This document shows, piece by piece, positions 9,178 to 33,212 of a DNA stretch of 34,348 nucleotides. Position 1 is the first letter of the stretch. Every line of letters begins with the position of its first letter. The stretch covers positions 1-34,348 of the forward strand of contig JAJQCB010000084.1 in the NCBI GenBank assembly GCA_021203005.1, in the 5' to 3' direction. The stretch is from Clostridiales bacterium. Lineage in GTDB: Bacteria > Bacillota > Clostridia > Lachnospirales > Lachnospiraceae. The position numbers and the translations under genes were made by a program. The notes beneath the pieces are model-generated. The model was not told where the DNA came from. It did not search any database and was given only the letters and a program-made list of their open reading frames with translations.

Positions 9178-9285
9178 TTATTCATTTTTCATATATTCTA
9201 TAATCATCCCGTCTGTTTTTGCCCGGCATACATGAATGGAATTTCCGAAATAATCTCTATTCTGCGCAAAAATATCGCTTTTCCT
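9178..9285 (-). pseudogene. C-terminal remnant of an AstE/aspartoacylase-like deacylase
   Basis: On the minus strand these bases read ...KSDIFAQNRDYFG, then SIHVCRAKTDGMI and a short tail to TAA at 9180-9178. The intact deacylase at 12410-13363 has KGDILGEIRDYFG and VIHVCRAKTNGMI at the matching place near its own C-terminus. The similarity also holds at DNA level (gcccggca.acatg.atg and ttccgaaataatc). No N-terminal part or start is present. The homology stops where the AAA_14/DUF4143 ATPase gene ends, and the two overlap by two bases in different frames. This is best read as a gene cut off by recombination or insertion of the ATPase gene. Confidence 0.75.
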
Positions 9286-10639
9286 ACAATTCCGAGAGAT
9301 CTATCTGATAAATATACCCCCGCGGCTCTGCTTCCCGCTGATAAAACATAACCATGTACCACGGCAGATATTCTATGCCATTTTCCTCCTCAGCATTTCC
9401 TTTGCAAAAAACAATTTTTTTTCCAAAAATCCAGTTTTCAACCTCCGACATATGATTTATGGCCTGGTGCTTTTTGTAATCATTTCCGGATTTCACTTCA
9501 ATTAAATCCGTCTCCATCCCGTTCTGTACCACAAAATCCACTTCACCTATTTTTTTCGATTCATAATAATGAAGAGAAAAGCCCCCGGATCTGATTGACT
9601 GTGCAAATGCATTCTCCAGAATACTTCCCATATTCACCGACACATCTCCATTCAAAAGTACAAACTGGATATTCGTCATACACGCTGCGCAGAGCAAGCC
9701 AGTGTCATTTAAAAACAGCTTGAAGATGTTTCTCTTTTCATTTATCTGCAACGGCGGCTGCGGCTCCGTAACATTATAAGAGGGCAGCGCCACTCCTGCA
9801 TCACTCAGCCACAAAAATGAGTTCTCGTAGCGATTATACCTGCCATTTCCATCAACCTTATTCAAAAAGAACCTTCTGTTTTTATCATTTAACTGCGACG
9901 GAATGCTGTCGAAAATTGCCTGTATCTTAATCCGCTCACTCCCGACCGCGTATTTTGAAATATCCAGACGATATAACTCCAGGATATCCCTCTGTACCTG
10001 AACAACCTTTCCGATATCATGAGTATCCACATATGTCTGCACTGCGGCAGGCATCCCGCCAACGACAATATACGTATAAAAAAGCTTCAGCATCGTTGTG
10101 TGGATAGCATCAGGAACCGATTCTTTTTTCACATAACATTGTCTGAGACGTGAAATTGTCGACTCCTGCACTCCGTTTGCATACGCATATTCCTCAAAGT
10201 TCATGGGGTACATATAATAAATTTCTTCAAAACCCACCGGATAGGAACGCACCTCATGATATCGGACGCCCAGCATGGATCCGGACTCAATATAATCAAA
10301 TCGTCCGTCTTCTACCAGGAATTTTATCGCAGACCGGGCATTCGGGCACTCCTGAATTTCATCCAGAAATACCAAAGTCTTTCCAGGCTCCATTTTCTGC
10401 ATTTTAAAAGCTGTCAGATTTTCTATAATCGTGTCTGCATCCAGATTCCCCGCAAAAATCTTTTGCGCATCCGTGTCAGTGACAAAATTAATTTCCACAA
10501 AATTCTCATACTGCTCGCGCCCGAACTGCTCGATGATCGTTGTCTTTCCAATCTGTCTTGCGCCGATCACACAAAGTGCTCTTTTTGGCTTTTCATCTTT
10601 CCATGATTTAAGCTTTGAATAAATTTGTCTCTCAAGCAT
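9284..10639 (-). CDS. AAA_14/DUF4143 ATP-binding protein (copy 1)
   Basis: This 451-residue protein has an N-terminal AAA-type ATPase (Walker A GARQIGKTT at 26-34, Walker B TLVFLDEIQE at 88-97) and a C-terminal DUF4143 part ending in a PD-(D/E)xK-like nuclease signature, GEVDFVV...DLIEVKSG. The family is widespread and patchy in anaerobes. Many members look like mobile or accessory genes; the biological role is not settled, with defence or toxin-like ideas only suggested. GGAGG lies 11 bases before ATG 10639, a rather long spacing. The promoter overlaps three 12-bp repeats spaced exactly 33 bases apart. Its 3' end abuts a deacylase remnant, a sign of insertion. A distant second copy lies at 31992-33212, also next to a LysR gene. 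Confidence 0.9.
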   Translation of the reverse strand: MLERQIYSKLKSWKDEKPKRALCVIGARQIGKTTIIEQFGREQYENFVEINFVTDTDAQKIFAGNLDADTIIENLTAFKMQKMEPGKTLVFLDEIQECPNARSAIKFLVEDGRFDYIESGSMLGVRYHEVRSYPVGFEEIYYMYPMNFEEYAYANGVQESTISRLRQCYVKKESVPDAIHTTMLKLFYTYIVVGGMPAAVQTYVDTHDIGKVVQVQRDILELYRLDISKYAVGSERIKIQAIFDSIPSQLNDKNRRFFLNKVDGNGRYNRYENSFLWLSDAGVALPSYNVTEPQPPLQINEKRNIFKLFLNDTGLLCAACMTNIQFVLLNGDVSVNMGSILENAFAQSIRSGGFSLHYYESKKIGEVDFVVQNGMETDLIEVKSGNDYKKHQAINHMSEVENWIFGKKIVFCKGNAEEENGIEYLPWYMVMFYQREAEPRGYIYQIDLSEL

Positions 10640-12409: not shown

Positions 12410-13363
12410 TTATTGTAATAACACGCCGTAAGCCACCATCGGTCCGTCTTTTATGATCGCCAAACTGGATACCTGATACAGAATCATCCCGTTGGTTTTC
12501 GCCCGGCACACATGGATGACGATTCCGAAATAATCACGGATTTCGCCGAGGATATCTCCTTTTGAAAAAAATTCTCCCGGCTCAAAAAAAGGATACCAAC
12601 ATCCCGCAACCGGGGCATTTTCATACACCGTCTCCCGAAACAGCAGCGGTTTGGGCACGGGCTTATCCTCCGCATCACCTGCGTCCAATATCTTAAGATA
12701 AGCCAGGATCCGCCGGACATCCTTCTTATCCATGTCTACCTCCGCTTTACTCCACATTCCGCGGCCGCCGCGTTCCAGAAGAATGCTGGGGATCCCGATA
12801 CTGCTGGCATAATTATAGGCGCCGCCCGCAAGGGACTGGGACTCCACCAGGCAGCCGGCAGACACACGGCGGGCCATCTGAAACGATGTTTCTCTCACCT
12901 GCGGATCCGACTTGCCCACATAATAGGCATATGTGTGAAGCTTCTCGTAACCGTCTCCGGAGTGCAGGTCAATGTAGTAATCCGCCGCGGAAAAGAGCTC
13001 TTTTGTAATCGTATAACAGATCTGGTCCGCCACTGTTCCGTTTGCCCTGCCGGGGAATTCCCGGTTCAGGTTCTTGTTATCTTCGTAGACCATACTCATG
13101 GTACGGCGCAGGAAACCGCTGACATTTACCAGCGGAATAATGATCACGGTCCCTTTCACTTCTTCCGGCTGCAGCTCATTTCCCAGTTCAATCGCAGCCT
13201 GAATTCCGACATACTCCGCATTATGGATTCCCGCTGTGATCAGCACAGTCTTTCCCTCGCCTCCGCAGATTACCGTCATCGGAAGCTCATATCCGCATCC
13301 TGTTACTTTCAGAAATCCCGACTTTTTTTCACCCGGGCGCACCTCCATATTTCCAATTCTCAT
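12410..13363 (-). CDS. Succinylglutamate desuccinylase/aspartoacylase (AstE/AspA, M14-like) zinc deacylase
   Basis: This 317-residue metal hydrolase carries zinc ligands GIHNAE (His 47, Glu 50) and IDLHSGDG (His 134), the substrate-binding NLNREFPG (residues 98-105) and a catalytic glutamate in ILLERGGRG (Glu 197). Family members remove N-acyl groups from amino acids or cleave related amides in the cytoplasm. The start at ATG 13363 follows GGAGG at 7 bases; the longer reading to 13408 lacks support. It is the last gene behind the Opp-type transporter and the extra binding protein, with a hairpin in between, so it probably processes what the operon imports. A decayed C-terminal copy sits at 9178-9285. 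Family sure, substrate unknown. Confidence 0.9.
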   Translation of the reverse strand: MRIGNMEVRPGEKKSGFLKVTGCGYELPMTVICGGEGKTVLITAGIHNAEYVGIQAAIELGNELQPEEVKGTVIIIPLVNVSGFLRRTMSMVYEDNKNLNREFPGRANGTVADQICYTITKELFSAADYYIDLHSGDGYEKLHTYAYYVGKSDPQVRETSFQMARRVSAGCLVESQSLAGGAYNYASSIGIPSILLERGGRGMWSKAEVDMDKKDVRRILAYLKILDAGDAEDKPVPKPLLFRETVYENAPVAGCWYPFFEPGEFFSKGDILGEIRDYFGIVIHVCRAKTNGMILYQVSSLAIIKDGPMVAYGVLLQ

Positions 13364-13391
13364 AAATATCCTCCATATCCTTATTCGCTGC

Positions 13392-13422
13392 AAAAGCCTG
13401 TGAGCCAAAACAGCTCACAGGC
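13392..13422 (-). terminator. Terminator or attenuator between the binding protein and deacylase
   Basis: GCCTGTGAGC (13396-13405) and GCTCACAGGC (13413-13422) form a perfect 10-bp stem with a 7-base loop. On the minus strand it is followed by TTTTGC. It would reduce, not necessarily abolish, transcription into the deacylase gene. Confidence 0.72.
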
Positions 13423-13537
13423 CAGTTTTACACAAGGCTGCTCGGGGAAGGTAACGGCATTACAGCCCGCAGCCAGCATAACAAGTGCAGGGCACAAATA
13501 TGTCCTCTGCCCCATTCATTATAAAATATGCAAGGTT

Positions 13538-14806
13538 CTATTCCGACAGTCTCTCCATCACAGACTCGAGGTCGCTGGCCTGCGCCAGTTCCACAAACGC
13601 TTTATAAGTCGCATCCTCATTATAAGCCCGTATGACGCTCATGAGATCGGAACTGCTGTAAGCATTTTCATAAATACTCTGCGTATAGCCGAACAGCTCC
13701 GCATACTCTTCATCCGATGCCGCGGTCCAGTATGACTGGTAGATACGGAACGCCTCCCCGTCAGGATTCACCAGATCCGCATCGCCCTTTAAGGCATTGA
13801 AGACAGCGACAAAAGCAGGCGCTGCCATGGAAGCATACTTGCCTTTCACATAGTGCAGCATACCGTAACCGTTGTCTGCGATATCATAAATAGCATCGTA
13901 GTTTTCCTGCGAAAAGCAGTCCACAACCCCGACTCGCATGAGCGCCGTATCAGCCTCAATCTCCTCCTTCATGTCATCAAATACCGTGCTCAGTCCCACA
14001 GCGGAGAGAAGCGCATCATACTGCCCCATATCCAGCGCGGTATAGAAGTTGTCCAGTCCTTCCTCCAGCTGAATATATCCGGGAGTGATGACGATTAACA
14101 CATCGTCCCGCCCGGTCTCCACCTGCGTCACTTCTGTCACCTGAGCCAGGTTTTCAATGGTGTCGTCATAGGTCACGCCCAGTTCATCCTGTATCGCAGT
14201 CAGCATTCCTTCCACACGGGTGTAATGCATATAGTTCTCCGCGTTTCCGGCTCCGCCGCTGACAATCAGGAATGTGCCCGCGCCATCCGCAATAAAATCT
14301 TCCGCCATCTCTTTTCCGGCGTTGTACTCCTCCTCGGTGTCCGGGCCGATCACGCCCAGAAACCACTCATTATCCTTTACTGCCTCGAATTCAGAGTCGC
14401 TGATGGAAGAGGAGCCCAGCACATAGTACATTTCATTCTCCTCACAGGCAGCGACAACGCTCTCCAGATCTGTCCCGTAAAAACTGATGATTGCAGAGGC
14501 ACCCTCTTCCTTTGCCTCCTCCACAAAGGCAATCTCATCATCAATGGAATCCAGATCCCCTGACATAATAAATTCTACGGGGAAGCTTTCCGCGATATAA
14601 TTCCTGTAATAATTGTAAAACATTGTCATTTCAGGGTCTGTCGTACTGTAGACGGCCACACCGATCTTATACGTAGTGTCGTCACTCTCCGCAGCCGCAG
14701 ATGCTTCCTCACTCTCGTCGACGGACGCGCTGCCGCATCCCGCAAGAGAAAACAGCAGCAGACCCGTCAATAGAATACTTAAAAGCCTCTTTACTTTGTT
14801 CTTCAT
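13538..14806 (-). CDS. Type-1 periplasmic-binding-protein-like lipoprotein (sugar-type fold)
   Basis: This 422-residue exported lipoprotein has a signal peptide MKNKVKRLLSILLTGLLLFS and lipobox SLAGC (Cys 24), then an acidic linker and a periplasmic-binding domain beginning TYKIGVAVYSTTDPEM. The segments SAIISFYGTDLESVVAACEEN and FLIVSGGAGNAENYMHYTRVEG match the Peripla_BP type-1/4 style that binds sugars and other small ligands. No permease of the matching sugar class is nearby; instead it trails an Opp-type transporter by 104 bases. It may be a second binding protein or a ligand sensor. GGAG lies 6 bases before ATG 14806, preferred over the ATG at 14818. Fold call is good, ligand unknown. 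Confidence 0.85.
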   Translation of the reverse strand: MKNKVKRLLSILLTGLLLFSLAGCGSASVDESEEASAAAESDDTTYKIGVAVYSTTDPEMTMFYNYYRNYIAESFPVEFIMSGDLDSIDDEIAFVEEAKEEGASAIISFYGTDLESVVAACEENEMYYVLGSSSISDSEFEAVKDNEWFLGVIGPDTEEEYNAGKEMAEDFIADGAGTFLIVSGGAGNAENYMHYTRVEGMLTAIQDELGVTYDDTIENLAQVTEVTQVETGRDDVLIVITPGYIQLEEGLDNFYTALDMGQYDALLSAVGLSTVFDDMKEEIEADTALMRVGVVDCFSQENYDAIYDIADNGYGMLHYVKGKYASMAAPAFVAVFNALKGDADLVNPDGEAFRIYQSYWTAASDEEYAELFGYTQSIYENAYSSSDLMSVIRAYNEDATYKAFVELAQASDLESVMERLSE

Positions 14807-14910
14807 ATCAATCTCCATCTCGCACGCCGGTTTTCATCGGCGGCGCCCATTCTATGATTATGCAATATAAGGGTATGGTGCTTAAACCTTTTCCCCTGGT
14901 ATTGTCATCA

Positions 14911-15870
14911 TTATGCATACAGATGGCATGCTACCTGATGATTTTCCTCAGTTTGTACGAGTAAAGGACGTTCTTCCTTACACCGTGCCATGCATTTCTC
15001 ACAGCGGTTCTGGAACGGGCACCCGGGCGGAACATCCACCGGACTCGGAGCCTCGCTCTCAATACTCTCGATGGGCTTATCAAAGTCCATATTCAGATCA
15101 AATACAACCCCGATCAGTGCCTGTGTGTACGGATGCATGGCATGGTTCGCAACTTTGTTTCCCGGCAGGACCTCAACGATATTGCCCAGATACATGACCG
15201 CGACCTGATGTGCAAACGCCTGTACGAGCGCCATATCGTGGCAGATAAAACCAAAGGCGATATCCTTTTCCTTCTGCAATTTTACCAGAAGCTCAATAAT
15301 CGTCTTCTGCACCGAGACATCCAGCGCCGATGTCGCCTCATCACAGAGTATGATCTCCGGCTCCAGCGCCAGCGCCCGCGCGATTCCCACGCGCTGCCGC
15401 TGCCCGCCGCTCATATTATTCGGGTAGCGGGTGGCAAAATCTCCGGGAAGTTCCACCATTTCCAGCAGTTTTCTCGCGGTAGCCTCCTTTTCGCTCTTCT
15501 TAATCCGGTTGAAATTCAAAAGAGGCTCACAGATAATATCCATGATCTTCATCTTCGGGTTGAACGCAGCCGCCGGATCCTGGAACACCATCTGAATATT
15601 CTGGCGGTGCAGGCGAAGCTCTTCGCCCTTTAACTTTGTGATATCTTTACCGTGGAAAAGGATTTCGCCCTCTGTCGGCTGCTCCAGTGAGACAACCATA
15701 CGCATGAACGTGCTTTTTCCGCAGCCGCTCTCTCCTACGATACCCAGCGTCTGTCCCTTATAGATGTTTAACGATACATCGTTATTTGCAGTCAGGGTAC
15801 GATGGTTTGACGCCGGATATTTCTTTGTTATATGCTTTGCTTCCAGTATTAACTCATGTGTATCAGACAA
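14911..15870 (-). CDS. Oligopeptide/nickel-type ABC transporter ATPase (OppF/DppF)
   Basis: This 319-residue ABC ATPase has Walker A GESGCGKST, signature MSGGQRQRVG, Walker B IILCDEATSALD and switch His in FICHDM. The C-terminal oligo_HPY domain ends with PPGCPFQNRCEKCMARC, the Cys-rich tail common in OppD/F and DppD/F. It energises import together with the OppD-like protein. The start was set at TTG 15870 because GGAGGG lies 7 bases upstream inside the end of oppD; it overlaps oppD by 8 bases, implying translational coupling. An ATG at 15897 would give a longer, less supported start. Confidence 0.92.
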   Translation of the reverse strand: MSDTHELILEAKHITKKYPASNHRTLTANNDVSLNIYKGQTLGIVGESGCGKSTFMRMVVSLEQPTEGEILFHGKDITKLKGEELRLHRQNIQMVFQDPAAAFNPKMKIMDIICEPLLNFNRIKKSEKEATARKLLEMVELPGDFATRYPNNMSGGQRQRVGIARALALEPEIILCDEATSALDVSVQKTIIELLVKLQKEKDIAFGFICHDMALVQAFAHQVAVMYLGNIVEVLPGNKVANHAMHPYTQALIGVVFDLNMDFDKPIESIESEAPSPVDVPPGCPFQNRCEKCMARCKEERPLLVQTEENHQVACHLYA

Positions 15871-16651
15871 ATCGGTACCCTCCCATCGCAGGAACACTTT
15901 CGAGCAGTTTTTGCGTGTAGGCGCTGGACGAGTGCTTCAGAATCGTCTCTCTGTCCCCTGTCTCGACGACGTGTCCGTCTTTCATGACAATGATTTTGTC
16001 CGCCATATAGGCAGCCACGCCCAGATTGTGGGTTACCACAATAATTCCTGTATTGTATTTATCCCGCAGTTCGATCATCTGGCGCACGATCTGTGCCTGT
16101 GTCGTCACATCCAGTGCGCTTGTGGGTTCATCACCGAGCAGGAGCTTCGGCTGAAAGGTCATCGCCATGGCGATTCCGACTCTCTGGCGCATTCCGCCGG
16201 AAAGCTGGAACGGATAACTTCTCATGATATTATCACCGTTGGGCAGCCGGGTCTTTTCCAGCATTTCCACCCCCAGATCCCATGCTTCCTTCTTTGACAT
16301 CTGGCGGTGTGTGCGGATATACTCCACGTACTGAGCCCCAATTCTGCGGATCGGATTGATCATCGCGCCGGAATCCTGAAAAATCATGGAAATCTCCGTC
16401 CCGCGCAGGTCCCGCCACTCTTCTTTTGAGTAAGTCAGAAGAGATCTGTCCTCAAACTGGATATCGCCTTCGCTCACATAACCGCCGCCGGGCAGACACC
16501 CCAGAATCGCACGGATCACTGTTGATTTACCGCTTCCGCTTTCTCCCACAATGCTGACGATCTCACCCTTTTTCATTTCCAGGTTCACCCCCTGCACCGT
16601 AGGTGCAGGGTTTTTCCCATAGGTGATCGAAACATCCTGTATTTTCAGCAT
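15863..16651 (-). CDS. Oligopeptide/nickel-type ABC transporter ATPase (OppD/DppD)
   Basis: This 262-residue ABC ATPase has Walker A GESGSGKST, signature LSGGMRQRVG, Walker B LLLGDEPTSALD and HNLGVAAYMAD. It is shorter than many OppD proteins because it stops soon after the nucleotide-binding domain and lacks the long Cys-rich tail, as NikD/DppD-like forms often do. GGGAGG precedes ATG 16651. It follows the binding protein by 13 bases and overlaps oppF, so it is part of the operon. Confidence 0.92.
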   Translation of the reverse strand: MLKIQDVSITYGKNPAPTVQGVNLEMKKGEIVSIVGESGSGKSTVIRAILGCLPGGGYVSEGDIQFEDRSLLTYSKEEWRDLRGTEISMIFQDSGAMINPIRRIGAQYVEYIRTHRQMSKKEAWDLGVEMLEKTRLPNGDNIMRSYPFQLSGGMRQRVGIAMAMTFQPKLLLGDEPTSALDVTTQAQIVRQMIELRDKYNTGIIVVTHNLGVAAYMADKIIVMKDGHVVETGDRETILKHSSSAYTQKLLESVPAMGGYRFV

Positions 16652-16664
16652 CGGATTTCCTCCC

Positions 16665-18284
16665 TTAATTCACAGGCGCCCAGTCTGTCGTGATCCAGGT
16701 GTAATCCAGCGGATACATTTCCACGCCGGTGATTACGCTGTTGTTGTAAGTGATGGAGCTGTTGTAGTAGCCGTGCACGATGGTCGCGGCGTCGTCGATC
16801 AGAATCTGCTGCATCTCGATGTACAGTTCCATCTTTTCATCCTCATCGGTGGAGACGATCATCTGCTCATACGCGGCGTCATACTCCTCATTGCTGTAAT
16901 AACCGTAACCGTCAGAATTTCCGCTGTAGAAATATCCAAGGAACGCATCCGGGTTTCCGGTAGGTACGATGATGGAATTCGCCGTAACCATATCAAAATC
17001 TCCGGATTCCTGCAGGGCGAGAATCGTGTCATAATCCTTTACCTGGTAATCCACGCCGATGCCGATGCTGTTTAATACGGTAGAAACAGCCTCCGCGAAT
17101 GTCTGCAGCTGACGGCTCTCATAAGCCAGGTAAGTCAGGTTGATATTTTCCCCGTCGATCTCGCGGATGCCGTCTCCGTCGGTGTCCACGATTCCGGCTT
17201 CGTCGAGCACTTCCTGCGCCTTGTCGAGATCATATTCATAGGGGTCAGTCAGCTCGTCATATCCAAAGTCCATGGATGAGGGCAGTACAGAATAGCCGGC
17301 CGTATAGATACCGCCCACCGTCACACTGCACATCGTCTCATCGTCGATCGCATACTGGATTGCCTGGCGCAGGGCGTCATTCGCAAGCAGGCCGTTAAAG
17401 TTAAAGTAGGTATTTGCCAGACGTCCGCCTGCCGTACTTTCCACCGTGTAAGCCGAGTCATTCATCAGCGTTTCCAGATCGCTGGCCGTTGTGACATTTT
17501 CCACCACATCCACATCGCCGCTCTGGATCGCCATGGCTTTTGTGGTGCTGTCAGTCATATAGATCGCTGTATATCCTTCGTAAGGGACATCTCCGTTCCA
17601 GTAGTTCTCATTCCTCACAAACGTTTTGGATGTAGCCTCCACATAGCTGTCCAGGACATAGGGACCGGTGCCGATCACAGAGTCAACCACGCCTTCCTCA
17701 TAGGAATCCACGTCGATCACTGCAAAGTACGGGTATGCCAGGATCCCTTTCAGGTTTGTCGTCACATCCGCGCAGACAACGGTAATGGTTCCGGCTTCGT
17801 CGTCCGCCTCAAACGTTGCGCCATCCAGGAACTGTGACGGGACAGAAGCACTTCCTTCCTCCTCTTTCTCATACATCATCTCCCAGCAGGCCACAACCGC
17901 CGACGGGGTCAGTTCTTTCCCGTTGGAGAATGTGACGCCATCGCGGATATGAAGCGTCCATGTGATATAGTCTTCTGTCGTCGCCTCATCGCAGAGGTTT
18001 TCCTGTGCAACCGCATCCATATCAAAGGCAAAGAGTGTCTCACCTACACCAAAACGCACCAGAGACCAGGCGGAATTGACATTGACAGAAGGGTCAATGT
18101 ACTCTGAGAAGTAATCGCAGCCAAAGGTAAATGTACCATCGCTGCTCCCAGATGACGTGGATGCGGTTTCTGTACCTGTTGTGCTGCCGCTGTCAGAGCT
18201 TTCGCTCCCGCAGGCCATCAGCCCTGTGGCCAGCACTGCAACTAACGCAGCTGACACAATTTTCTTTACAACATTCTTTTTCAT
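16665..18284 (-). CDS. Solute-binding lipoprotein, family 5 (peptide/nickel/opine type)
   Basis: This 539-residue extracellular lipoprotein has a signal peptide and lipobox LMAC (Cys 25), a Ser/Thr-rich linker, then a family-5 binding protein: TLHIRDGVTFSNGKELTPSAVV, VIGTGPYVLDSYV and NENYWNGDVPYEG. These are typical of OppA, DppA and NikA. The ligand cannot be read from motifs. A cobalamin riboswitch and a metal ATPase at the head of the operon make a metal or metal complex at least as likely as peptides. AAGGAAGG precedes ATG 18284. Order in the operon is permeases, this protein, ATPases, an unusual middle position for the binding protein. Confidence 0.92.
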   Translation of the reverse strand: MKKNVVKKIVSAALVAVLATGLMACGSESSDSGSTTGTETASTSSGSSDGTFTFGCDYFSEYIDPSVNVNSAWSLVRFGVGETLFAFDMDAVAQENLCDEATTEDYITWTLHIRDGVTFSNGKELTPSAVVACWEMMYEKEEEGSASVPSQFLDGATFEADDEAGTITVVCADVTTNLKGILAYPYFAVIDVDSYEEGVVDSVIGTGPYVLDSYVEATSKTFVRNENYWNGDVPYEGYTAIYMTDSTTKAMAIQSGDVDVVENVTTASDLETLMNDSAYTVESTAGGRLANTYFNFNGLLANDALRQAIQYAIDDETMCSVTVGGIYTAGYSVLPSSMDFGYDELTDPYEYDLDKAQEVLDEAGIVDTDGDGIREIDGENINLTYLAYESRQLQTFAEAVSTVLNSIGIGVDYQVKDYDTILALQESGDFDMVTANSIIVPTGNPDAFLGYFYSGNSDGYGYYSNEEYDAAYEQMIVSTDEDEKMELYIEMQQILIDDAATIVHGYYNSSITYNNSVITGVEMYPLDYTWITTDWAPVN

Positions 18285-18348
18285 GAATTTAATACCTTCC
18301 TTTCAATTTCATTTCAATCATTTATGTATTTTTCTTTACATACTCAGG

Positions 18349-19176
18349 TTACTCATTTCTGGGATCCAGCACATCCCGGAGGCTGTCGCCCAGAAGATTA
18401 AAGATCACAACCGTGATAAAAATCGCAAGACCCGGGAAAATCATCAGCCACGGAGCCGCCGTCATATACGCACGCCCCTCATTCAGCATCAGACCCCACT
18501 CCGCCGTCGGCGACTGTGCACCGAACCCGAGGAATGATAAACCAGCAATCTCCAGCATCATGGTACCGATATCTGTCGCACCCGTGATCAGAACCGTCGG
18601 GAGCGCGTTCGGAAGCATGTAGCTGACAAGGATATGTGATGTCTTTGATCCCGTAACCTGTGCTGCCGCTATGTAATCCCGGTTGCGTATCTTTAAGACC
18701 AGGCTTCGCGACAGCCTGGCGTATTTCGTCCAGCTCACGATGGAGATGGCGATGATCGCATTTTTAATGTTTGCACCGAGGATACCCGCTACCGCGATGG
18801 CAAGCACCATGCCGGGGAAAGAAATCATCATATCGGAAATCCGCATAATGATCGCGTCCACAATTCCGCCGAAGTAGCCAGCGATAATTCCGAGCAATGT
18901 CCCCAGCACCATGATAATCCCGACCAGGATCAGGGCGGCGCTTAAGGATGTCCTTGCACCATATACGACACGGGAAAACAGATCCCGTCCCATCTTATCC
19001 GTTCCAAACCAGTGCTCTGCACTGGGTGCCTGCACCGCATCCGCCAGCACCGACTCATACGGGTCGTGCGTTGCAATGAGCGGCGCGAAAATCGCCACAC
19101 AGACCACCCCGATCGCTAAAATGAGGAACACGATAAAGCTGGGATTCTTTTTTGCAAATGCTTTGAATTTTGCCAT
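18349..19176 (-). CDS. ABC transporter permease, OppC/DppC/NikC type
   Basis: This 275-residue inner-membrane permease has about six helices. The N-terminus carries the OppC_N type start, and HWFGTDKMGRDLFSRVVYGAR is the family's signature. The EAA-like loop DYIAAAQVTGSKTSHILVSY contacts the ATPases. AAGGAG precedes ATG 19176, four bases after the oppB stop, so the two permeases are tightly coupled. It pairs with the OppB-type permease to form the channel. Confidence 0.92.
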   Translation of the reverse strand: MAKFKAFAKKNPSFIVFLILAIGVVCVAIFAPLIATHDPYESVLADAVQAPSAEHWFGTDKMGRDLFSRVVYGARTSLSAALILVGIIMVLGTLLGIIAGYFGGIVDAIIMRISDMMISFPGMVLAIAVAGILGANIKNAIIAISIVSWTKYARLSRSLVLKIRNRDYIAAAQVTGSKTSHILVSYMLPNALPTVLITGATDIGTMMLEIAGLSFLGFGAQSPTAEWGLMLNEGRAYMTAAPWLMIFPGLAIFITVVIFNLLGDSLRDVLDPRNE

Positions 19177-19180
19177 ATCT

Positions 19181-20119
19181 CTAACTCCTTTCCCTCATTC
19201 TCGGATCCAAAAAACCGTAGGAAATGTCCACTACCAGATTGATCACCATGTAAATCAGGGCAATCCACAGCACATATCCCTGCACCAGATTATAGTCCAT
19301 CGATGTGATCGCACTCACCGCCAGGTTTCCGAGACCCGGATAAGAGAAGATCACCTCCACCACCGCGGTTCCTCCCAGCAGAGACCCCATGGAAAGGCCA
19401 AGCATAGTCACCAGCGGAAGGATGGAATTGGGAAGCACATGCTTCCACAGAATCGTGCTTTCCTTAATACCGCGGCACCGGGCGCCGACCACATAGTCCT
19501 GGTTGAGTTCTTCCAGAAACGCCGTCCTCACCTGCCTCGTGTACTTCGATGCCATGGCGATCGCGAGGGTCACCGAAGGCAGAATCAGCTTGGCAAATCC
19601 CTGGCCGGTAGATACCACCGGCAGCCACCCCAGCTTCACGCAGAAGACCAGCATCAGCAGCAGGCCCACCCAGAAGTTCGGCAGGGATACGCCCAGGAAG
19701 GTAAAGCCCCGCACGATGTAATCGATCACACCGCCCTGGTGCGTGGCCGACAGGATTCCAAACGGAATCGCAATGGCGAGCATCAGCACCAGAGAGCACA
19801 GCGCCAGCTTCAGGGTCGGCCAGATCCTGCTCATCAGCAGGGTCAGCACCGGTTTATTGTATGCGTAGGAAGTGCCGAAATCCCCGTGAAGACATCCCGA
19901 CAGCCAGTTGACATACTGGACCAGGAACGGCTCGTTTAACCCCAGCGCTTCTCTCGTCTGATCCATGATCTCCTCACTGGGTATGGAACCGCTGGCCGCA
20001 TACATGGCCTGCACCGGGTCTCCCGGAGCAATGTAGGTAAGCGCAAAGGTCAGAAAACTGATTCCGAACAATACAATAATGATCTGGAGGATCCGTTTCA
20101 GCAGCTTGCTTTTGTTCAA
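19181..20119 (-). CDS. ABC transporter permease, OppB/DppB/NikB type
   Basis: This 312-residue inner-membrane permease with about six helices begins MNKSKLLKRILQIIIVLFG and has FALTYIAPGDPVQAMY, GDFGTSY and the EAA-like loop DYVVGARCRGIKESTILWKH. The C-terminus GFLDPRMR is typical. Translation starts at TTG 20119, with AGGAGGA 7 bases upstream. It begins only 14 bases after the P-type ATPase reading frame ends, with no terminator, which places the transporter in the same riboswitch-controlled transcript. Confidence 0.92.
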   Translation of the reverse strand: MNKSKLLKRILQIIIVLFGISFLTFALTYIAPGDPVQAMYAASGSIPSEEIMDQTREALGLNEPFLVQYVNWLSGCLHGDFGTSYAYNKPVLTLLMSRIWPTLKLALCSLVLMLAIAIPFGILSATHQGGVIDYIVRGFTFLGVSLPNFWVGLLLMLVFCVKLGWLPVVSTGQGFAKLILPSVTLAIAMASKYTRQVRTAFLEELNQDYVVGARCRGIKESTILWKHVLPNSILPLVTMLGLSMGSLLGGTAVVEVIFSYPGLGNLAVSAITSMDYNLVQGYVLWIALIYMVINLVVDISYGFLDPRMRERS

Positions 20120-20133
20120 TGATATCTCCTCCT

Positions 20134-22599
20134 TTACTGACTCTTTCTCTTCTTGTTAAATTTATACAGAACACGGATGGAGTTCAGCACGCAGAGTACC
20201 GCCACACCGGAATCGGCAAAAACGGCAAACCACATGCTGGCCTCTCCCATGAGACCGAGTACCATGACCAGCACCTTGATGATCAGAGCAAACACTACGT
20301 TTTGCATTGCCACCTTTGTGGCAGCCCGCGCGATTTCAATGGAATCTGCGATGGAAGTCAGGCTGGAATTCATAAACACCACATCCGCCGCCTCAATCGC
20401 GGCATCTGCTCCGCTGCCCATTGCAGCGCCCACATCCGCGCCAGCCAGTACCGGCGCATCGTTGATTCCGTCTCCGACGAACATCACCGCGCCGTTGCGT
20501 CTGCGGATTTCCTAAATCTGCGTGAGCTTATCCTGCGGCATAAGCTTTGCATGAACCTCCTCGATTCCGGTTTCCCTGGCGACTGCCATAGCGCTCTCCT
20601 CACCGTCGCCGGTCAGCATCGCTGTCCTGATATCAATCTCATGCAGCGCCCGGATCGCGGCAGGCGATTCTTCCTTAATGGAATCCGCGATCACAATGTG
20701 GCCGATAAACTTTCCGTTTAACGCTGTCAGTACTTCCGTTCCGTAAGTCGTAGGCGCATAATCAGAGATATCGACTCCGAACTGACGCATCAGCTTGCGA
20801 TTACCGCACAACGCCTCACCTTCCGGCAAAATTGCACGGATACCCTGTCCCGCAATTTCCTCCACCTTATCCGGATGAGGGATGTCAATCCCCTGTTCTT
20901 TCACGTACGCGATGATACTGTTGCCGATCGGATGCGTAGAATTCAACTCGCACGCCGCGCTGCAGGACAGCAGTTCTTTTTCGTCCGCACCATTCGCAGG
21001 AACCGCCTCCTGCACATTGAAGTTACCCTTTGTAATCGTTCCCGTCTTATCCATAACGACGGTTGTAATGTTTTTGATCGCTTCCAGGGAATTGCCTCCC
21101 TTAAAGAGGATACCAATCTTGGATCCGGCTCCGATTCCCGAGAAAAATGCCAGCGGGACGCTGAGCACCAGTGCACACGGACAGCTGATCACCAGGAAGG
21201 TCAACGCTGTGTAAACCCAGTAATACCAGTTTCCGGAGACCAGAGCGGGGAGGATAGCCGTCGCCAGAGCAATGATAACCACGATCGGCGTGTATATTCT
21301 GGCAAAACGAGTGATAAAACGCTCCATCTGGGGTTTTGTTGCCGCCGCATTCTCCACGGAATCCAGAATCTTCGTCACCATGGATTCCTCCAGAAGTTTT
21401 TCCACACGGATTTTCAGGACGCCGGAGGTGTTCACGCAGCCAGATGTAACCTCATCGCCGTAGCCGGCTGCCACCGGAACCGGTTCACCGGTTACCGGTG
21501 AAGTATCAATGCGGCTTTCACCGTCCACGATGACGCCGTCCAGCGGAATCCGGTCGCCCGGACGGACCAGCAGGATATCTCCCACTACCGCATCCCCGGC
21601 ATCGATGACTCTGACCTCTTCCCCGACCACCAGATTCACGACATCCGGACGCATATCAACCGCTTCCATAATCGCCTTGCGGCTGTTTTCCACTGCCCGG
21701 TGTTCAAAGTACTGGCCGATCCGATAGAACAAAATCACGCCCACCGCTTCCAGATAGTTCTGTATGATCAGGGCGCCTACCGTGGCGATTGTCATCAGAA
21801 AGTTCTCATCAAATATCTGACCCTTGGGAATATTTTTGAGCGCTGTCAGCACAATCTTTCCGCCCAGAACCACATAGGCGATCAGGCATACGATGATCAT
21901 TGCCAGGGGCAGCTGTTCCGTGTTGCTGGTCTCGTGAATGATCTCCGCCAGAACAAAGAAGACCGCGCCGACAATGATGCCCGCCAGTTCCAGCTTATCC
22001 TTCGGAATCTCCTTTTTCTTTTTCTTACCCGCCTCGGAAGCCTCCGCAGGAGCTGCTGCCGGAGACACTTTTTTCTGCCGCGGCTTTACAATGACCTCTG
22101 ACTCGATACCTGTACAGATTTCCTGAATAACCGGAAGCAGTACATCGGGATCCGGAGCCGAGACACGAAGCTGTTTTGTGGAATATGTGATTGTCGCGTA
22201 ATCCACCTGCGGCAAGGCTCTGATTTTGGCCTCCATCTTGGCTGCGCAGTTTGCACACCCGAGATTTTCCAGGATGTATACCCTCTTTTTGTTTGCCGCA
22301 TCCGGCATATCGCAGGTGCAGTTTGCCAGGCTTTCCCCGCAGACATCGCAGTACTCCTCATGCGGATGACAGATCTCGCAGTCACAATCCTCAGGATGTC
22401 CTTCCACGTGATTGTGGCTATGTCCCTCGTGTCCGTGATCATGTCCGCAGCCGCAGGAATCTCCATGATCGTGCTCATGTTCTTCATGGCCGTGGTCATG
22501 TCCACAGCCGCATACATCTTCATGATCGTGCTCATGTTCTTCATGGCCGTGGTCGTGGCCGCAGCCGCATGCATCCTCATGGTCCAGTGATGCCACCAT
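20134..22599 (-). pseudogene. P1B-type heavy-metal ATPase (ZntA/CadA-like) interrupted by one in-frame TAG
   Basis: The frame covers 821 codons but has a TAG at 20514-20512 (codon 696). Up to there it holds a His/Cys-rich N-terminus with three 19-residue repeats, an HMA domain with GCANC (115-118), the actuator TGEP (370), the membrane CPC motif (473-475), phosphorylation motif DKTGT (517-521) and HP (556). After the TAG the same frame carries on with EIRRRNG, the hinge motif GDGIND and the last helices. Without readthrough the 695-residue product lacks the hinge and last transmembrane helices and should be inactive. The CPC and HMA motifs fit Zn/Cd/Co export. ATG 22599 follows AAAAAGGAGA. 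It heads the operon behind the cobalamin riboswitch and 14 bases before oppB. A single C-to-T change or a sequence error would explain it. Confidence 0.8.
22417..22584 (-). repeat. Three tandem 57-bp repeats encoding His/Cys-rich metal-binding units
   Basis: Residues 6-61 of the P-type ATPase are three copies of a 19-residue unit built on CGCGHDHGHE and EHEHDH. The DNA copies are nearly identical for the first two and more diverged in the third. They are likely Zn/Co/Ni-binding sequences and a site of copy-number change. Confidence 0.85.
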
Positions 22600-22652
22600 T
22601 TTCCTACCATCTCCTTTTTCTATTAAATTTATTTGAATCCCACGGAAAATAC

Positions 22653-22671
22653 CGGAACCAGAACAGTTCCG
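22653..22671 (-). other. Small hairpin between riboswitch and ATPase, possible expression platform
   Basis: CGGAAC (22671-22666 read on the minus strand) pairs with GTTCCG (22658-22653), loop 7, followed by GTATTTTCC. It could act as a weak terminator or compete with an alternative fold under riboswitch control. The 170 bases between riboswitch and ATPase start hold no other clear element. Confidence 0.35.
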
Positions 22672-22768
22672 ACAAAGATACCATTACACAGAAATTCAGC
22701 GGTACTTGTAATATCAGTACGCCAAAAAAGCTGCTTCTCATCGTCCGTAAGAATCAAGCCAATATCAA

Positions 22769-22935
22769 TTACAAGCAGTTCTCCTGACTCAAGATCATCA
22801 CTCCAGAGCGCCTTCCCAGGCTCATCTCGCAATGCGGCCCAGTGACATAACTTATGCTCTGAAACTCCCTAACACAGTGACGGGATCGTACCGGATTTGC
22901 ACCGGTTTCTCTATTAATCCTCTCGGAACTTGTAA
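22769..22935 (-). promoter_or_regulatory. Cobalamin (B12) riboswitch
   Basis: Read on the minus strand, the element has the conserved boxes in order: GGTGCAAATCCGG, CCCGTCACTGTG, GTCACTGGG, CTGGGAAGG and GATGATCTTGAGTCAGGAG. The closing P1 stem pairs TTACAAG (22935-22929) with CTTGTAA (22775-22769). This is the aptamer that binds adenosyl- or methylcobalamin and lowers expression of downstream genes. It precedes the P-type ATPase/Opp-type operon by 170 bases. An extra hairpin (CTGGT/ACCAG) sits just before P1, and the region further upstream to 23094 is very AT-rich with no clean promoter. The whole stretch 22600-23143 holds no convincing gene. Confidence 0.93.
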
Positions 22936-23094
22936 CGTCTGGTTTTTACCAGCAGAAGTTTGAATTTATTGCCAAATTAATTAATATTCAACAATTTATA
23001 ACACAATATCACAGTTCGTTTCTATTGTATTTTGTTTTTTATATGTTTTTTTTAATATTTTTTCTATGTTTTATTCTCATGTTTTTATAATGCT

Positions 23095-23131
23095 AAAATT
23101 CCAACGCTTCGACGTGAAGCGTTGGAATTTT
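23095..23131 (-). terminator. Intrinsic terminator after URO-D copy 2
   Basis: A perfect 16-bp stem (23095-23110 with 23116-23131; arms AAAATTCCAACGCTTC and its complement) surrounds a 5-base loop. The 3' arm on the minus strand ends in TTTT. It lies 12 bases after the URO-D stop and separates it from the riboswitch operon. Confidence 0.87.
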
Positions 23132-24978: not shown

Positions 24979-25923
24979 CTATTCCCCAATACTGTTGAAA
25001 ACCTCACTAATTTTTTCAAAGGTATCAATCGCTCTGTCAAAATCCTGCTTTTCCGAGGAATAAAGCAAATCTTTATGCAAGGCTTCATATCTGTTTCTGA
25101 TATTATTATCAAAATACTTTCTCCAGCTTTCAAAGTTATATGCGCCAACCGGATCATACTCTTCAGAAACGTTCCTTTTTTGCAGATAAAATTTATCGGT
25201 ATTTTTTGTAAGAGTCAGCAATCGTTTTAATTCTTCTGAATTCTTTAAAAATGTCTGTATATCAGCCCTTTCAAACAAAACAGTAACATCATATATATGG
25301 CGAACTTTTCTTGCCAGCGTACCACAAATTGCATGTCTTTTTACTGACATAACCTTATCAAGAAAAGTCCTCGTAACATCCAGCGTATTTACTGACACTG
25401 CTTCCAGTTCAAACTCTGCTGCAGCATCCGCCATGCCCGCGCTTTCCAGATATTCCTCAATATAGGTCTTCATTTCTCTCTTCGAAAAAGGATCCGGCCT
25501 GATGCTGGAACCTATTTCAAGCTTAATACGACAAGCTTCCCTGTCTTCATTCTCCGGCCAGACATAGGAGCTCTTATTGCGGTCGTTACGCTCTGATTCA
25601 ATTTTTTGCATCTGAAAACCGCGGGTCATCGCATTTTCCACACATTTTAAGGATTTACTATACTTTTTATTGCTCAATAACTCACTGGGAATAAAGGTGA
25701 GATCAATATCTTCTGAAAAACGATTAATTGTTCCGGGGAAACATTTGCTGAGGGATGTTCCTCCCTTAAACACACACTGGTCAGCATACGCGCTGTTCTG
25801 TAAATTCTGCATCATCTTTACGATATAATAATCCCTCCGAACAGCATCCTCCGGGATTCCCAACCACTTCGAAACAATTGCTATAAGCTGTTCAAATTCT
25901 GCCCTATGCATGTGAAGATTCAT
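24979..25923 (-). CDS. AbiEii/AbiGii-type nucleotidyltransferase toxin
   Basis: This 314-residue protein has the nucleotidyltransferase core FKGGTSLSKCF (residues 52-62) followed by SEDIDLTF (70-77), the GG...DxD pattern of AbiEii toxins in type IV toxin-antitoxin/abortive-infection pairs. Related enzymes disturb tRNA or other targets; the substrate here is unknown. The start at ATG 25923 follows GGAGG at 6 bases and overlaps the antitoxin gene by 20 bases, the usual coupling. Longer readings to 25998 would lie inside the antitoxin frame. It sits between cobT and cobU. Confidence 0.9.
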   Translation of the reverse strand: MNLHMHRAEFEQLIAIVSKWLGIPEDAVRRDYYIVKMMQNLQNSAYADQCVFKGGTSLSKCFPGTINRFSEDIDLTFIPSELLSNKKYSKSLKCVENAMTRGFQMQKIESERNDRNKSSYVWPENEDREACRIKLEIGSSIRPDPFSKREMKTYIEEYLESAGMADAAAEFELEAVSVNTLDVTRTFLDKVMSVKRHAICGTLARKVRHIYDVTVLFERADIQTFLKNSEELKRLLTLTKNTDKFYLQKRNVSEEYDPVGAYNFESWRKYFDNNIRNRYEALHKDLLYSSEKQDFDRAIDTFEKISEVFNSIGE

Positions 25924-26605
25924 AAAATTCCTCCATCCCCGGTATTTTGTAAGAGGAAAGAGCCGACAAAAACTGCTGCAGGGTATTATCTTTCCCAAAA
26001 TAAGTCAGAAAGCTTTTCAAAAAAGCAATCGTGGATTTCTTGTATTTTCTGTTTTTTAATACGGAAACCGTGACGGAATCCGAGTATTTTTCAACATATT
26101 TCCTCATGTACTCCGCCAGTGCTGACTTATTAATATTTTCAATGTTCTCATAGTTTTGAAGAATTTCCATTGTTTCAATTACAGGAACCACTTCCTGCGT
26201 AATAGCCATTTCACTATTTTTAACACAAACATTGCCGACATTCTTCTTCTGTTCTGATATGACTGAAGATAGGACTTCTGTCCGTTTGCTTATCTGCGTT
26301 GTCAATCCAACCTTATTATAGAGCCTATATCCTATCACAACTCCCTGATCATTTCTTGTATAGTGATTAATAATTTCATTCTCACTGATAGGTACAATGC
26401 CAAATCTTGATTTTTGCGGTCTATAGTATATCCCCTTTGCCAGGTGAACCAAAGCACCCTGTTTTCTCATCCTTTCAAGCGTTTTATAATATGAGGTCTC
26501 CGGAATGGCGCCAAAAAATTTTTCATACATATCACCTGCCTCAAAAATCTTGTTCTTCGGCTCGCTTTCGATTACAGTCTCTATATATTTTGCATAACTG
26601 TTCAA
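25904..26605 (-). CDS. AbiEi-type antitoxin / regulator
   Basis: This 233-residue protein has an N-terminal winged helix (residues ~1-65, YKTLERMRKQGALVHLAKGIYYR) and a longer C-terminal domain, as in AbiEi antitoxins that repress their own promoter and neutralise AbiEii. The frame starts at TTG 26605 with AGGAGG nearby; an ATG three bases upstream is out of frame. Its promoter is overlapped by a 16-bp inverted repeat, a fitting operator. It overlaps the toxin gene by 20 bases. Confidence 0.86.
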   Translation of the reverse strand: MNSYAKYIETVIESEPKNKIFEAGDMYEKFFGAIPETSYYKTLERMRKQGALVHLAKGIYYRPQKSRFGIVPISENEIINHYTRNDQGVVIGYRLYNKVGLTTQISKRTEVLSSVISEQKKNVGNVCVKNSEMAITQEVVPVIETMEILQNYENIENINKSALAEYMRKYVEKYSDSVTVSVLKNRKYKKSTIAFLKSFLTYFGKDNTLQQFLSALSSYKIPGMEEFYESSHA

Positions 26606-31991: not shown

Positions 31992-33212
31992 CTATAGCAG
32001 AAGATTTTCGGAAAGAACCTGGATAATATTTTTATGCACAACGCCATCTCTTTCCTGTAACAAAGGATCCAATGTGAGCAGATATTTCGGATAATTATCG
32101 CGAATCTGATAAAACGGTCTATATTCACGCTCCTCCGTTTCCCGTTCCGCTATGGTCATAGCCACCTGAATATAGCGGTAATCATTTGTTCTGCGAACAA
32201 TGAAATCACATTCCAGCTTCCCAATACGACCTACACTTACCGAGTATCCACTGTTTCTAAGATACAAATATATTAAATTTTCAAGAGCCGGCCCGTAATT
32301 GATCCGGTTATCAGTCACCGTCATAAAGTAAATGCTTAGATCAGCAAGGTAATATTTCTGCTCGCCGGAGAGAGACTTTTTTGATTTGCAGTCAAACCTC
32401 GGACATTCATATATAATTTTTGCATTCGCTAATATTTGGATATACTTTCTAAGGGTTTCTTTTTTCACAGATATTTTTTCAGTTTTATTGAAATAATCAA
32501 ATAATGTCTGTACACTGAACGTAGCACCAAAATTATTGATAACATAATTTTGTACCCTTTCGAAAACATAACGGTTCCGAATCTTTACATTTGATTTAAT
32601 GTCTTTATTAAAAATTTCTTCAATAACGCTCTTTGTATAAAATCGCCTCGCCTCCATATCAGGATATTCCAGTGCTTTAGGGAAACCGCCGTTAATAATA
32701 TATTCATTAAATTCAGCTGTTATATCCCCGCTGACAGATCTCCCCAAATATTGTTTCATATTCATATACTCTGAAAAATCCAATGTAAATATTTCAAATT
32801 CAAGATATCTTCCCGTCAGTTTGGTTGCAATTTCCCCGCTTAGCAAATACGAATTAGAACCTGTCAAAAAAATAGAAATATTCCCATCTGTATTAAATGC
32901 ATTTATGATTTCCTCAAATCCCTTAACATTCTGCACTTCATCAATGAACAAATATTTAAAATCATCATCCTTGATCAACGAATCAATCTTTTCCTCCAGT
33001 AACTCAGGCGTCTTAACAGACTTATTCGATCTTTTGTCAAGATCAAGATATATGATATCTTTCTCCGGCACGCCGGATGCCAGCACTTCGTCTCTGATCA
33101 ACTGCATAATACAGGATTTCCCGCAACGGCGAATACCGCTGATCACCTTGATCATGTCTGTCTGATAAAATGGTCTGATTTTGGAAAGATATTTTTCTCT
33201 CTTAAACAGCAT
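31992..33212 (-). CDS. AAA_14/DUF4143 ATP-binding protein (copy 2)
   Basis: This 406-residue protein has Walker A GIRRCGKS (26-33), Walker B YLFIDEVQ (87-94), sensor-like IFLTGSNSYLLSGE and a DUF4143 half ending in a PD-(D/E)xK-like region, LECDFIVRR...YIQVAMTI, where Gln replaces the usual Glu before V-x. It is only distantly similar to copy 1 (9284-10639) and so not a recent duplication. GGAGG lies 9 bases before ATG 33212. A long leader with three dyads precedes it. Codon use is more AT-rich than in its neighbours, in keeping with acquisition. The role of the family is not settled. Confidence 0.9.
   Translation of the reverse strand: MLFKREKYLSKIRPFYQTDMIKVISGIRRCGKSCIMQLIRDEVLASGVPEKDIIYLDLDKRSNKSVKTPELLEEKIDSLIKDDDFKYLFIDEVQNVKGFEEIINAFNTDGNISIFLTGSNSYLLSGEIATKLTGRYLEFEIFTLDFSEYMNMKQYLGRSVSGDITAEFNEYIINGGFPKALEYPDMEARRFYTKSVIEEIFNKDIKSNVKIRNRYVFERVQNYVINNFGATFSVQTLFDYFNKTEKISVKKETLRKYIQILANAKIIYECPRFDCKSKKSLSGEQKYYLADLSIYFMTVTDNRINYGPALENLIYLYLRNSGYSVSVGRIGKLECDFIVRRTNDYRYIQVAMTIAERETEEREYRPFYQIRDNYPKYLLTLDPLLQERDGVVHKNIIQVLSENLLL

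Follow-up and report, generated by a model that had tools for sequence, protein, structure and literature searches.

A cobalamin-riboswitch operon joining a Nik-type importer, a metal ATPase and a zinc deacylase: a candidate system of cobalt acquisition in a Lachnospiraceae genome

The contig JAJQCB010000084.1 of a Clostridiales bacterium of the family Lachnospiraceae (assembly GCA_021203005.1; 3.83 Mb in 312 contigs, completeness 95.2, contamination 6.4) was analysed over its entire length of 34,348 bases, hereafter the window. It carries an operon, headed by a cobalamin riboswitch, in which a P1B-type metal ATPase is followed on the minus strand by oppB, oppC, a family-5 solute-binding lipoprotein (SBP5), oppD and oppF, which together make up an Opp/Nik-type ATP-binding cassette (ABC) importer, and then by a second binding lipoprotein (SBP1) and an AstE/AspA-type zinc deacylase. 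This arrangement is found again in other genomes and is therefore more than chance. On balance, we are inclined to regard the operon as a B12-repressed system of cobalt acquisition.

Operon layout and recurrence of the riboswitch-importer link

A preliminary description, drawn from the sequence alone, had reported a cobalamin aptamer followed by a run of genes on one strand with mostly tiny gaps, and this layout was confirmed. The aptamer (22757..22948, minus strand, as are all features of the operon given below) matches RF00174 over its full length (model positions 1-189) with 99.7 bits (E 5.3e-24) against a gathering score of 31.5 bits, and extends 13 bases past the end previously set for it; the genome holds three cobalamin riboswitches. 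The gap between the ATPase (counted to its frame end at 20134) and oppB measures 14 bases and contains the GGAGG of the importer. It is followed by gaps of 4 bases between oppB and oppC, 64 between oppC and SBP5, and 13 between SBP5 and oppD, by a 35-base overlap of oppD with oppF, and by intervals of 92 bases between oppF and SBP1 and 129 between SBP1 and the deacylase (174 if counted to the ATG at 13363).

Scanning of 84,980 species genomes with an OppB alignment (A1) yielded 124 relatives, the best 80 of which were kept as loci: 51 close ones (L167-L217, OppB 49-93% identity) and 29 remote ones (L218-L246, 38-43%). Riboswitches were sought with a covariance model, R1, built from 22 sequences, namely the window's own, which as a training row scores 119.5 bits, and 21 Rfam finds in relatives taken irrespective of their neighbours. 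R1 replaced a crude text pattern, which was dropped since it missed the window's own riboswitch. Of the 51 close loci, 32 have a same-strand cobalamin riboswitch ahead of the importer, 31 of them detected by R1 at E <=2e-5 and the remaining one, L180, by Rfam at 35.0 bits (R1 doubtful, E 0.97), whereas none was found in the 29 remote loci by R1 at E values up to 1. This contrast gives a Fisher p of 2e-9 without correction for kinship, computed with L172 counted and L180 not, which leaves the total unchanged. L172 (R1 E 0.0017, partial, no Rfam match) is excluded from the 32; the match in L179 is partial, and L168, whose contig begins 94 bases before the ATPase, could not be judged. Rfam confirmed the riboswitch in all eight loci of a first set, and in a second set of eight it was positive for L180 and L197 and found none in the other six, five of them R1-negative and one R1-doubtful. 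The 32 loci span Lachnospiraceae, Oscillospiraceae, Tissierella, Intestinibacter and Selenomonadaceae/Veillonellaceae. Two carriers available in culture, Intestinibacter bartlettii (L191) and Schwartzia succinivorans DSM 10502 (L212), show the riboswitch-importer arrangement, and no CbiM was detected in the genome of the latter. One extra R1 hit, at 17162 in L182, follows the importer and precedes other genes.

The placing of the importer under riboswitch control, as first proposed, is thus supported by the recurrence of the link in these loci. The gene order itself, which the preliminary description had suggested looking for behind cobalamin riboswitches of other genomes, was found exactly (ATPase-oppB-oppC-SBP5-oppD-oppF-SBP1-deacylase) in L167, L168, L169, L170, L176 and L180. 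Because OppB is almost identical in L167-L170 and L176, the exact order would represent, with the window and L180 added, about three lineages. In a quick OppB tree with several long branches (drawn from 60 of the 80 loci, with the window, L144 and L114 added; L168, L172, L174, L180, L183 and L216 unlabelled before the count), 30 of the 33 riboswitch-labelled rows fall in one clade of 49 rows, together with 13 labelled none and 6 unlabelled, and the label changes 9 times as against 18.6 in shuffles. Since a distant importer (OppB 41%) also stands immediately behind a riboswitch in the genome G032, the link must have arisen, or have been kept, more than once.

Partner genes were counted by tblastn and blastp with the window's genes, in fetched stretches that differ in length and with near-identical loci counted apart. 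A deacylase relative occurs in 18 of the 51 close and 1 of the 29 remote loci, the P1B ATPase in 21/51 and 0/29, and SBP1 in 11/51 and 0/29. Among the close loci, the deacylase is present in 14 of 32 with the riboswitch and 4 of 19 without it (L172 in, L180 out). The P1B ATPase is found in 12/32 versus 9/19, or 13/32 versus 8/19 after reassignment of L180 and L172, which argues against a tight link between ATPase and riboswitch.

Several layouts occur ahead of oppB, including riboswitch-deacylase-oppB (L194), riboswitch-deacylase-GNAT acetyltransferase-riboswitch-oppB (Tissierella L193, 6881-9019), ATPase-deacylase-oppB (L198, L216) and riboswitch-LysR-oppB (L189-L191). In Selenomonadaceae/Veillonellaceae metagenome-assembled genomes, the riboswitch-importer stretch also includes a MATE exporter and/or a porin-like SLH protein, arranged as riboswitch-MATE-porin-like-oppB (L199, L200), riboswitch-MATE-oppB (L201) or riboswitch-porin-like-oppB (L203, L204). 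Direct searches with two MATE genes found them in 6/51 and 4/51 loci, fewer than a first cluster list had joined. In Veillonella L206-L209 and L211, the importer has CorA and two P1B ATPases as neighbours and no riboswitch; in L206 (3386-16539), the two ATPases, CorA, the importer and MATE stand in a row, with no Rfam match at gathering. Family assignments were checked for GNAT in L193, SLH in L199, the porin-like protein (under cut-off) and MATE in L203, LysR in L189, and CorA, the first ATPase and MATE in L206, the other partner genes being named by clustering or tblastn.

Properties of the encoded proteins

The two permeases are of the nickel type by the NCBIfam cut-offs: the oppB product (19181..20119) scores 396.1 bits against Opp2B (cut-off 350) and the oppC product (18349..19176) 338.5 bits against Opp2C (cut-off 300). 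The oppD-type (15863..16651) and oppF-type (14911..15897) ATP-binding proteins were assigned by family search. SBP5 (16665..18284) was found to be NikA-like by family, profile and structure searches; it stays under all listed NikA, peptide and Cnt cut-offs (for NikA, 190.6 against 600 with Opp5A_nikA and 140 against 393 with nickel_nikA), its best model being nickel-binding. A profile of 31 SBP5 relatives matched seven solved sequences at <1e-60, several of which are versions of one protein; six bear the names of nickel-binding proteins or nickel transporters, while the remaining one, an unnamed S. aureus chain (3rqt), aligns to the profile over the stretch that SaNikA covers and scores almost equally. 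When the predicted structure of SBP5 (mean predicted local distance difference test score, pLDDT, 87.0) was compared with solved ones, nickel binders came top; because glutathione and dipeptide binders were also among the top rows, the predicted fold does not decide the cargo. The contact residues of E. coli NikA, R97, R137, Y402 and H416 as listed in PMC2667541, are not kept in SBP5 according to a by-eye count in profile alignments, where the two arginines are opposite unconserved residues (a and d, respectively), Y402 is opposite a t or a G (a position at which the printed alignments disagree by one place) and H416 a gap.

The P1B ATPase (20134..22599) is His/Cys-rich, as previously described, and has an HMA domain and a CPC motif (at 473). 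Its N-terminal piece passes TIGR01512, of the Zn/Cd type, with 347.4 bits against a cut-off of 313.5. The frame is not intact in the window: an in-frame TAG (20514-20512) interrupts it at codon 696 of 822, after which the remainder stays in the same frame to 20134. Because the six relatives of the same gene order have no internal stop, this codon is either a lesion of recent date or a fault of the assembly. The number of His/Cys-rich repeats at the N-terminus (about 22599-22290, minus strand) differs among orthologues.

The deacylase (12410..13363) passes PF24827 (AstE_AspA) with 94.6 against 25 bits, so that the family first assigned to it stands; the start previously given, TTG 13408, gives way to ATG 13363 as the most likely one. 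Indeed, this ATG is preceded by GGAGG, and the TTG of the longer frame falls within a terminator-like hairpin with 10-base arms followed by TTTT (13392..13422; seen by eye, absent from the consensus scan). Residues H62, E65, H149 and E212 (numbered from 13408) are invariant in 21 of 21 aligned sequences, the first three forming what we take to be the zinc-ligand pattern. Since this His-Glu-His pattern and the later Glu are kept throughout, the enzyme is probably active. It scores 104.3 against the DoeB equivalog cut-off of 402.7 (TIGR02994), and AstE_AspA is its single Pfam match at 0.001, with no match to CbiZ (PF01955). Because the TTTT hairpin lies between SBP1 and the deacylase, the latter may be only partly co-transcribed in the window. 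The spacing of the two genes is about 235 bases in L168 and about 150 in L169; in L167, L170, L176, L179, L180 and L182 it is within about 40 bases, a closeness that favours a single transcript in the family.

For SBP1 (13538..14818), the type-1 periplasmic-binding fold of the preliminary description is recovered by structure prediction, which gives a sugar-binder-like fold (mean pLDDT 86.6; best structural match E 3.9e-9, 12% identity); neither Pfam nor NCBIfam gives SBP1 a match at 0.001. Three of its four remoter relatives, with blast identities of 26-31%, share their fetched stretch with other ABC ATPase genes.

Proposed role and competing explanations

Cobalt is a scarce metal that is bound less tightly than zinc or copper. 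In the cobalt acquisition that we favour, low adenosylcobalamin would lead the riboswitch to permit gene expression; SBP5 would then capture cobalt bound to a small organic ligand, and OppBCDF would import the complex, as suggested at class level by the riboswitch, the Nik-type permeases and the B12-making carriers. A cytosolic enzyme of the AstE/AspA type would hydrolyse an amide of the ligand and thereby release or recycle it, the co-expressed Zn/Cd-type ATPase would expel zinc and other metals entering in the same way while cobalt is retained, and SBP1, judging by its predicted fold, might serve as a second capture protein. A flow-equilibrium model in which import and export jointly keep metal pools right has been put forward for zinc (PMC12632275).

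CbiD, a marker of de novo B12 synthesis, was detected in 34 of the 35 importer genomes (G000 and G061-G094, including those of L168 and L172) versus 33 of 60 relatives (the window's genome excluded; G032, G014 and G009 included). In the 14 searched genomes of riboswitch-free close loci, CbiD was found in 12 and CbiM in 2. Import of cobalt or of a cobalt-ligand complex at low B12, as originally suggested, thus gains from the riboswitch link, the nickel-permease cut-offs, the nickel-binding relatives and the frequency of CbiD, whereas cobalt rather than nickel or peptide, the substrate of the deacylase and the role of the ATPase are the parts of that proposal that we infer.

Several findings weigh against cobalt acquisition. 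The genomes G014 and G009, of the same genus (reappearing among the loci as L173 and L174), hold orthologous importers without riboswitch, ATPase or deacylase, in the order SBP5-oppB-C-D-F-SBP1, with OppB 84% but SBP5 only 36-37% identical to those of the window; a methyltransferase gene stands ahead of the importer in G014, and clustering suggests likewise for G009. CbiM is also present in the window's genome, and the ATPase, which family and motif alike assign to the Zn/Cd type, is interrupted in the window. Replacement of CbiMNQO by the importer was considered and rejected, as CbiM exceeds its cut-off in 13 of 34 CbiD-positive importer genomes and 14 of 33 CbiD-positive relatives (G074, with CbiM under cut-off, left out of the count).

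Cobalt acquisition could be extended to a B12-governed chelate cycle of anaerobic Firmicutes, an idea that we find doubtful and offer tentatively. Here, an N-acylated ligand would be exported through MATE, the cobalt complex would come back through a porin (if there is an outer membrane) and the importer, the deacylase would cut the ligand and release cobalt, and the Zn/Cd ATPase would filter out unwanted metals. For the export step, MATE transporters occur in several stretches; for the cutting step, a GNAT acetyltransferase gene adjoins the deacylase in Tissierella L193, with a separate riboswitch ahead of the pair.

Among the rival explanations, salvage of corrinoids would have the importer bring in a corrinoid that is incomplete or foreign, to be remodelled by the deacylase as an amidohydrolase in the place of CbiZ. 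B12 riboswitches do govern corrinoid uptake too (PMC11477304, PMC4285132), CbiZ is found in 6 of 49 genomes, that of the window not among them, and in L178 (2250-8050) and L181 (16561-19709) the deacylase shares its stretch with ABC genes and with the gene of a BtuC-like permease, for which BtuC is the best model although the score stays below cut-off, a hint of corrinoid or siderophore work. Nevertheless, we consider this explanation unlikely in view of the Opp/Nik-type machinery with its nickel-permease and NikA-like parts, the prevalence of CbiD in importer genomes and an enzyme that matches AstE_AspA and no corrinoid family (Pfam at 0.001); it also leaves the P1B ATPase unexplained. Alternatively, B12 shortage might halt methionine synthesis, and peptides or N-acyl amino acids would be imported for the deacylase to free the amino acid. 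The importer family does include peptide importers, whose binding proteins rank high in the structural comparison, the family names of AstE/AspA enzymes point to cleavage of N-acyl amino acids, and in L114 the deacylase is divergent beside an Opp-type set, its genome (G029) having no RF00174 match and R1 giving E 0.42 in L114 at best. Nickel-type permeases, metal ATPase and CorA neighbours and the association with de novo B12 makers speak against such a bypass, which seems to us quite improbable.

That a nickel importer has merely been placed under a B12 riboswitch would suit the best family names and the nearest solved structures, which are nickel-binding; we think it very unlikely, however, given that B12 control is repeated across families and that SBP5 lacks the contact residues of E. 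coli NikA. There is least to be said for two independent units, riboswitch and ATPase belonging together and the importer and its partners following by chance. The importers of G014 and G009, which lack riboswitch and ATPase, would fit such a division, but the short ATPase-oppB gap with the importer's GGAGG inside it, and riboswitches standing before oppB with no ATPase between them (L171, L175, L177, L178, L181, L186, L202, L210, L212, L217 and others), make it most improbable.

The core of the proposed cobalt acquisition system, a NikABCDE-type importer behind a B12 riboswitch, has already been predicted. For NikABCDE of Clostridium tetani and Desulfitobacterium hafniense, a B12 riboswitch was predicted upstream and these systems were distinguished from the nickel-specific rest (PMC2667541). 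Compared by description only, they resemble the window in having a peptide/nickel-family ABC importer behind such a riboswitch, and the P1B ATPase, the second lipoprotein and the deacylase go unmentioned in the accessible part of that source. Cobalt transporters are one class within cobalamin regulons (PMC3766115). Clostridioides difficile has three cobalamin riboswitches, before CbiMNQO, a BtuCDF-like set and cob/cbi genes (PMC11477304), and in Dehalobacter restrictus a CbiMNQ cobalt transporter and proteins of the CbiZ type are reported to have risen under corrinoid starvation (PMC4285132). CbiMNQO thus shares with the window's importer the proposed role in cobalt uptake and, in C. difficile, the riboswitch, but it is of the energy-coupling factor type, a different protein family, and the window's genome has a separate CbiM.

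The staphylopine importer CntABCDF is, like the window's, of the Opp type and imports a metal chelate, cobalt included (a CntA-staphylopine-cobalt structure was among the structural matches), whereas the best window proteins miss the Cnt cut-offs (CntA 92.6/800, CntC 253/440, CntD 235.6/380, CntF 236.7/385). We know of no B12-riboswitch control of Cnt. With DoeB, AstE and AspA, the deacylase has the catalytic family and the zinc-ligand pattern in common, its DoeB score being far under the cut-off; ZntA/CadA-type P1B ATPases share HMA, CPC and the TIGR01512 cut-off with the window's ATPase, which differs in standing behind a B12 riboswitch and in being interrupted in the assembly. In the open-licence literature searched, as far as its accessible parts go, no description was found that combines a B12 riboswitch, a P1B ATPase and a deacylase; nor did that literature yield a cobalt-specific metallophore system under B12 control. 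The earlier statement that no described system has this exact set stands within this literature, and the expanded operon is the new part. How B12-making gut anaerobes acquire cobalt is poorly known, as CbiM over its cut-off is absent from 21 of 34 CbiD-positive importer genomes and 19 of 33 CbiD-positive relatives. A recurrent riboswitch-linked importer that has a putative ligand-cleaving enzyme and a metal exporter as neighbours provides named genes with which to test cobalt capture and the selection of cobalt versus zinc.

Leader, flanking genes and further observations

Downstream of the aptamer, a candidate regulatory hairpin with a 6-pair stem and a 7-base loop (22735..22753) was seen by eye; it is visible in 14 of 21 leaders inspected and not in that form in the other 7. 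Across 10 distinct leaders, 95% of its cells pair, versus at most 63% in slid versions, and its covariation does not exceed that of shuffles, 85 of 500 of which reach its score. A run of six T (22724..22729) follows, and an alternative stem pairs the stretch with the 3' strand of the aptamer, according to leader reading and folding; the folding energy of the leader is nothing unusual (z -0.14). Hairpin, T run and alternative stem would be compatible with an OFF switch. A home-made terminator scan was positive in 21 of 27 leaders of relatives versus 33 of 135 letter shuffles, and in the window it points, as does the consensus scan, to a candidate at 22674-22650. A leader terminator was rejected as the general expression platform, since none was found in the four likest leaders (L167, L169, L170, L176), which contain no stretch matching the window's candidate. 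Control of the operon may be translational or weak.

A perfect inverted repeat with 15-base arms and a T-rich end (23096..23130, minus strand; seen by eye, absent from the consensus terminator scan) parts the operon from a UroD-like gene upstream and is the probable end of the upstream transcript. Farther upstream on the same strand lie CobU, CobT and two corrin-type methylases, a B12-gene setting in keeping with cobalt acquisition. Between CobU and CobT, an AbiEii-type nucleotidyltransferase and a DUF6088 partner form an AbiE-like toxin-antitoxin pair (24979-26605, minus strand). Because orthologues of the UroD-like gene and of the LysR gene flank a different block in the genome G012, the operon occupies a variable site. 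Near that block stand a P1B gene and a riboswitch, the latter preceding genes that by eye resemble btuFCD as well as one for an ArsR-type regulator. Two AAA_14/DUF4143 genes lie in the window on the minus strand (9284-10639 and 31992-33212); the second has a counterpart in L124, from another species of the genus, with 98% identity over 258 residues, suggesting recent movement.

Further genes were noted beside the relatives' importers. S-adenosylmethionine-dependent methyltransferase genes occur in L044 (6353-7120), L178 (13736-15355), L187 and L188; three importer-side methyltransferase proteins that were scanned are all under the named cut-offs. A glycyl radical enzyme gene lies directly upstream of the riboswitch in L170 (4660-7068), with clustered relatives in L176 and L181, and a tetrahydrofolate riboswitch lies upstream of the cobalamin riboswitch in L194 (528-617).

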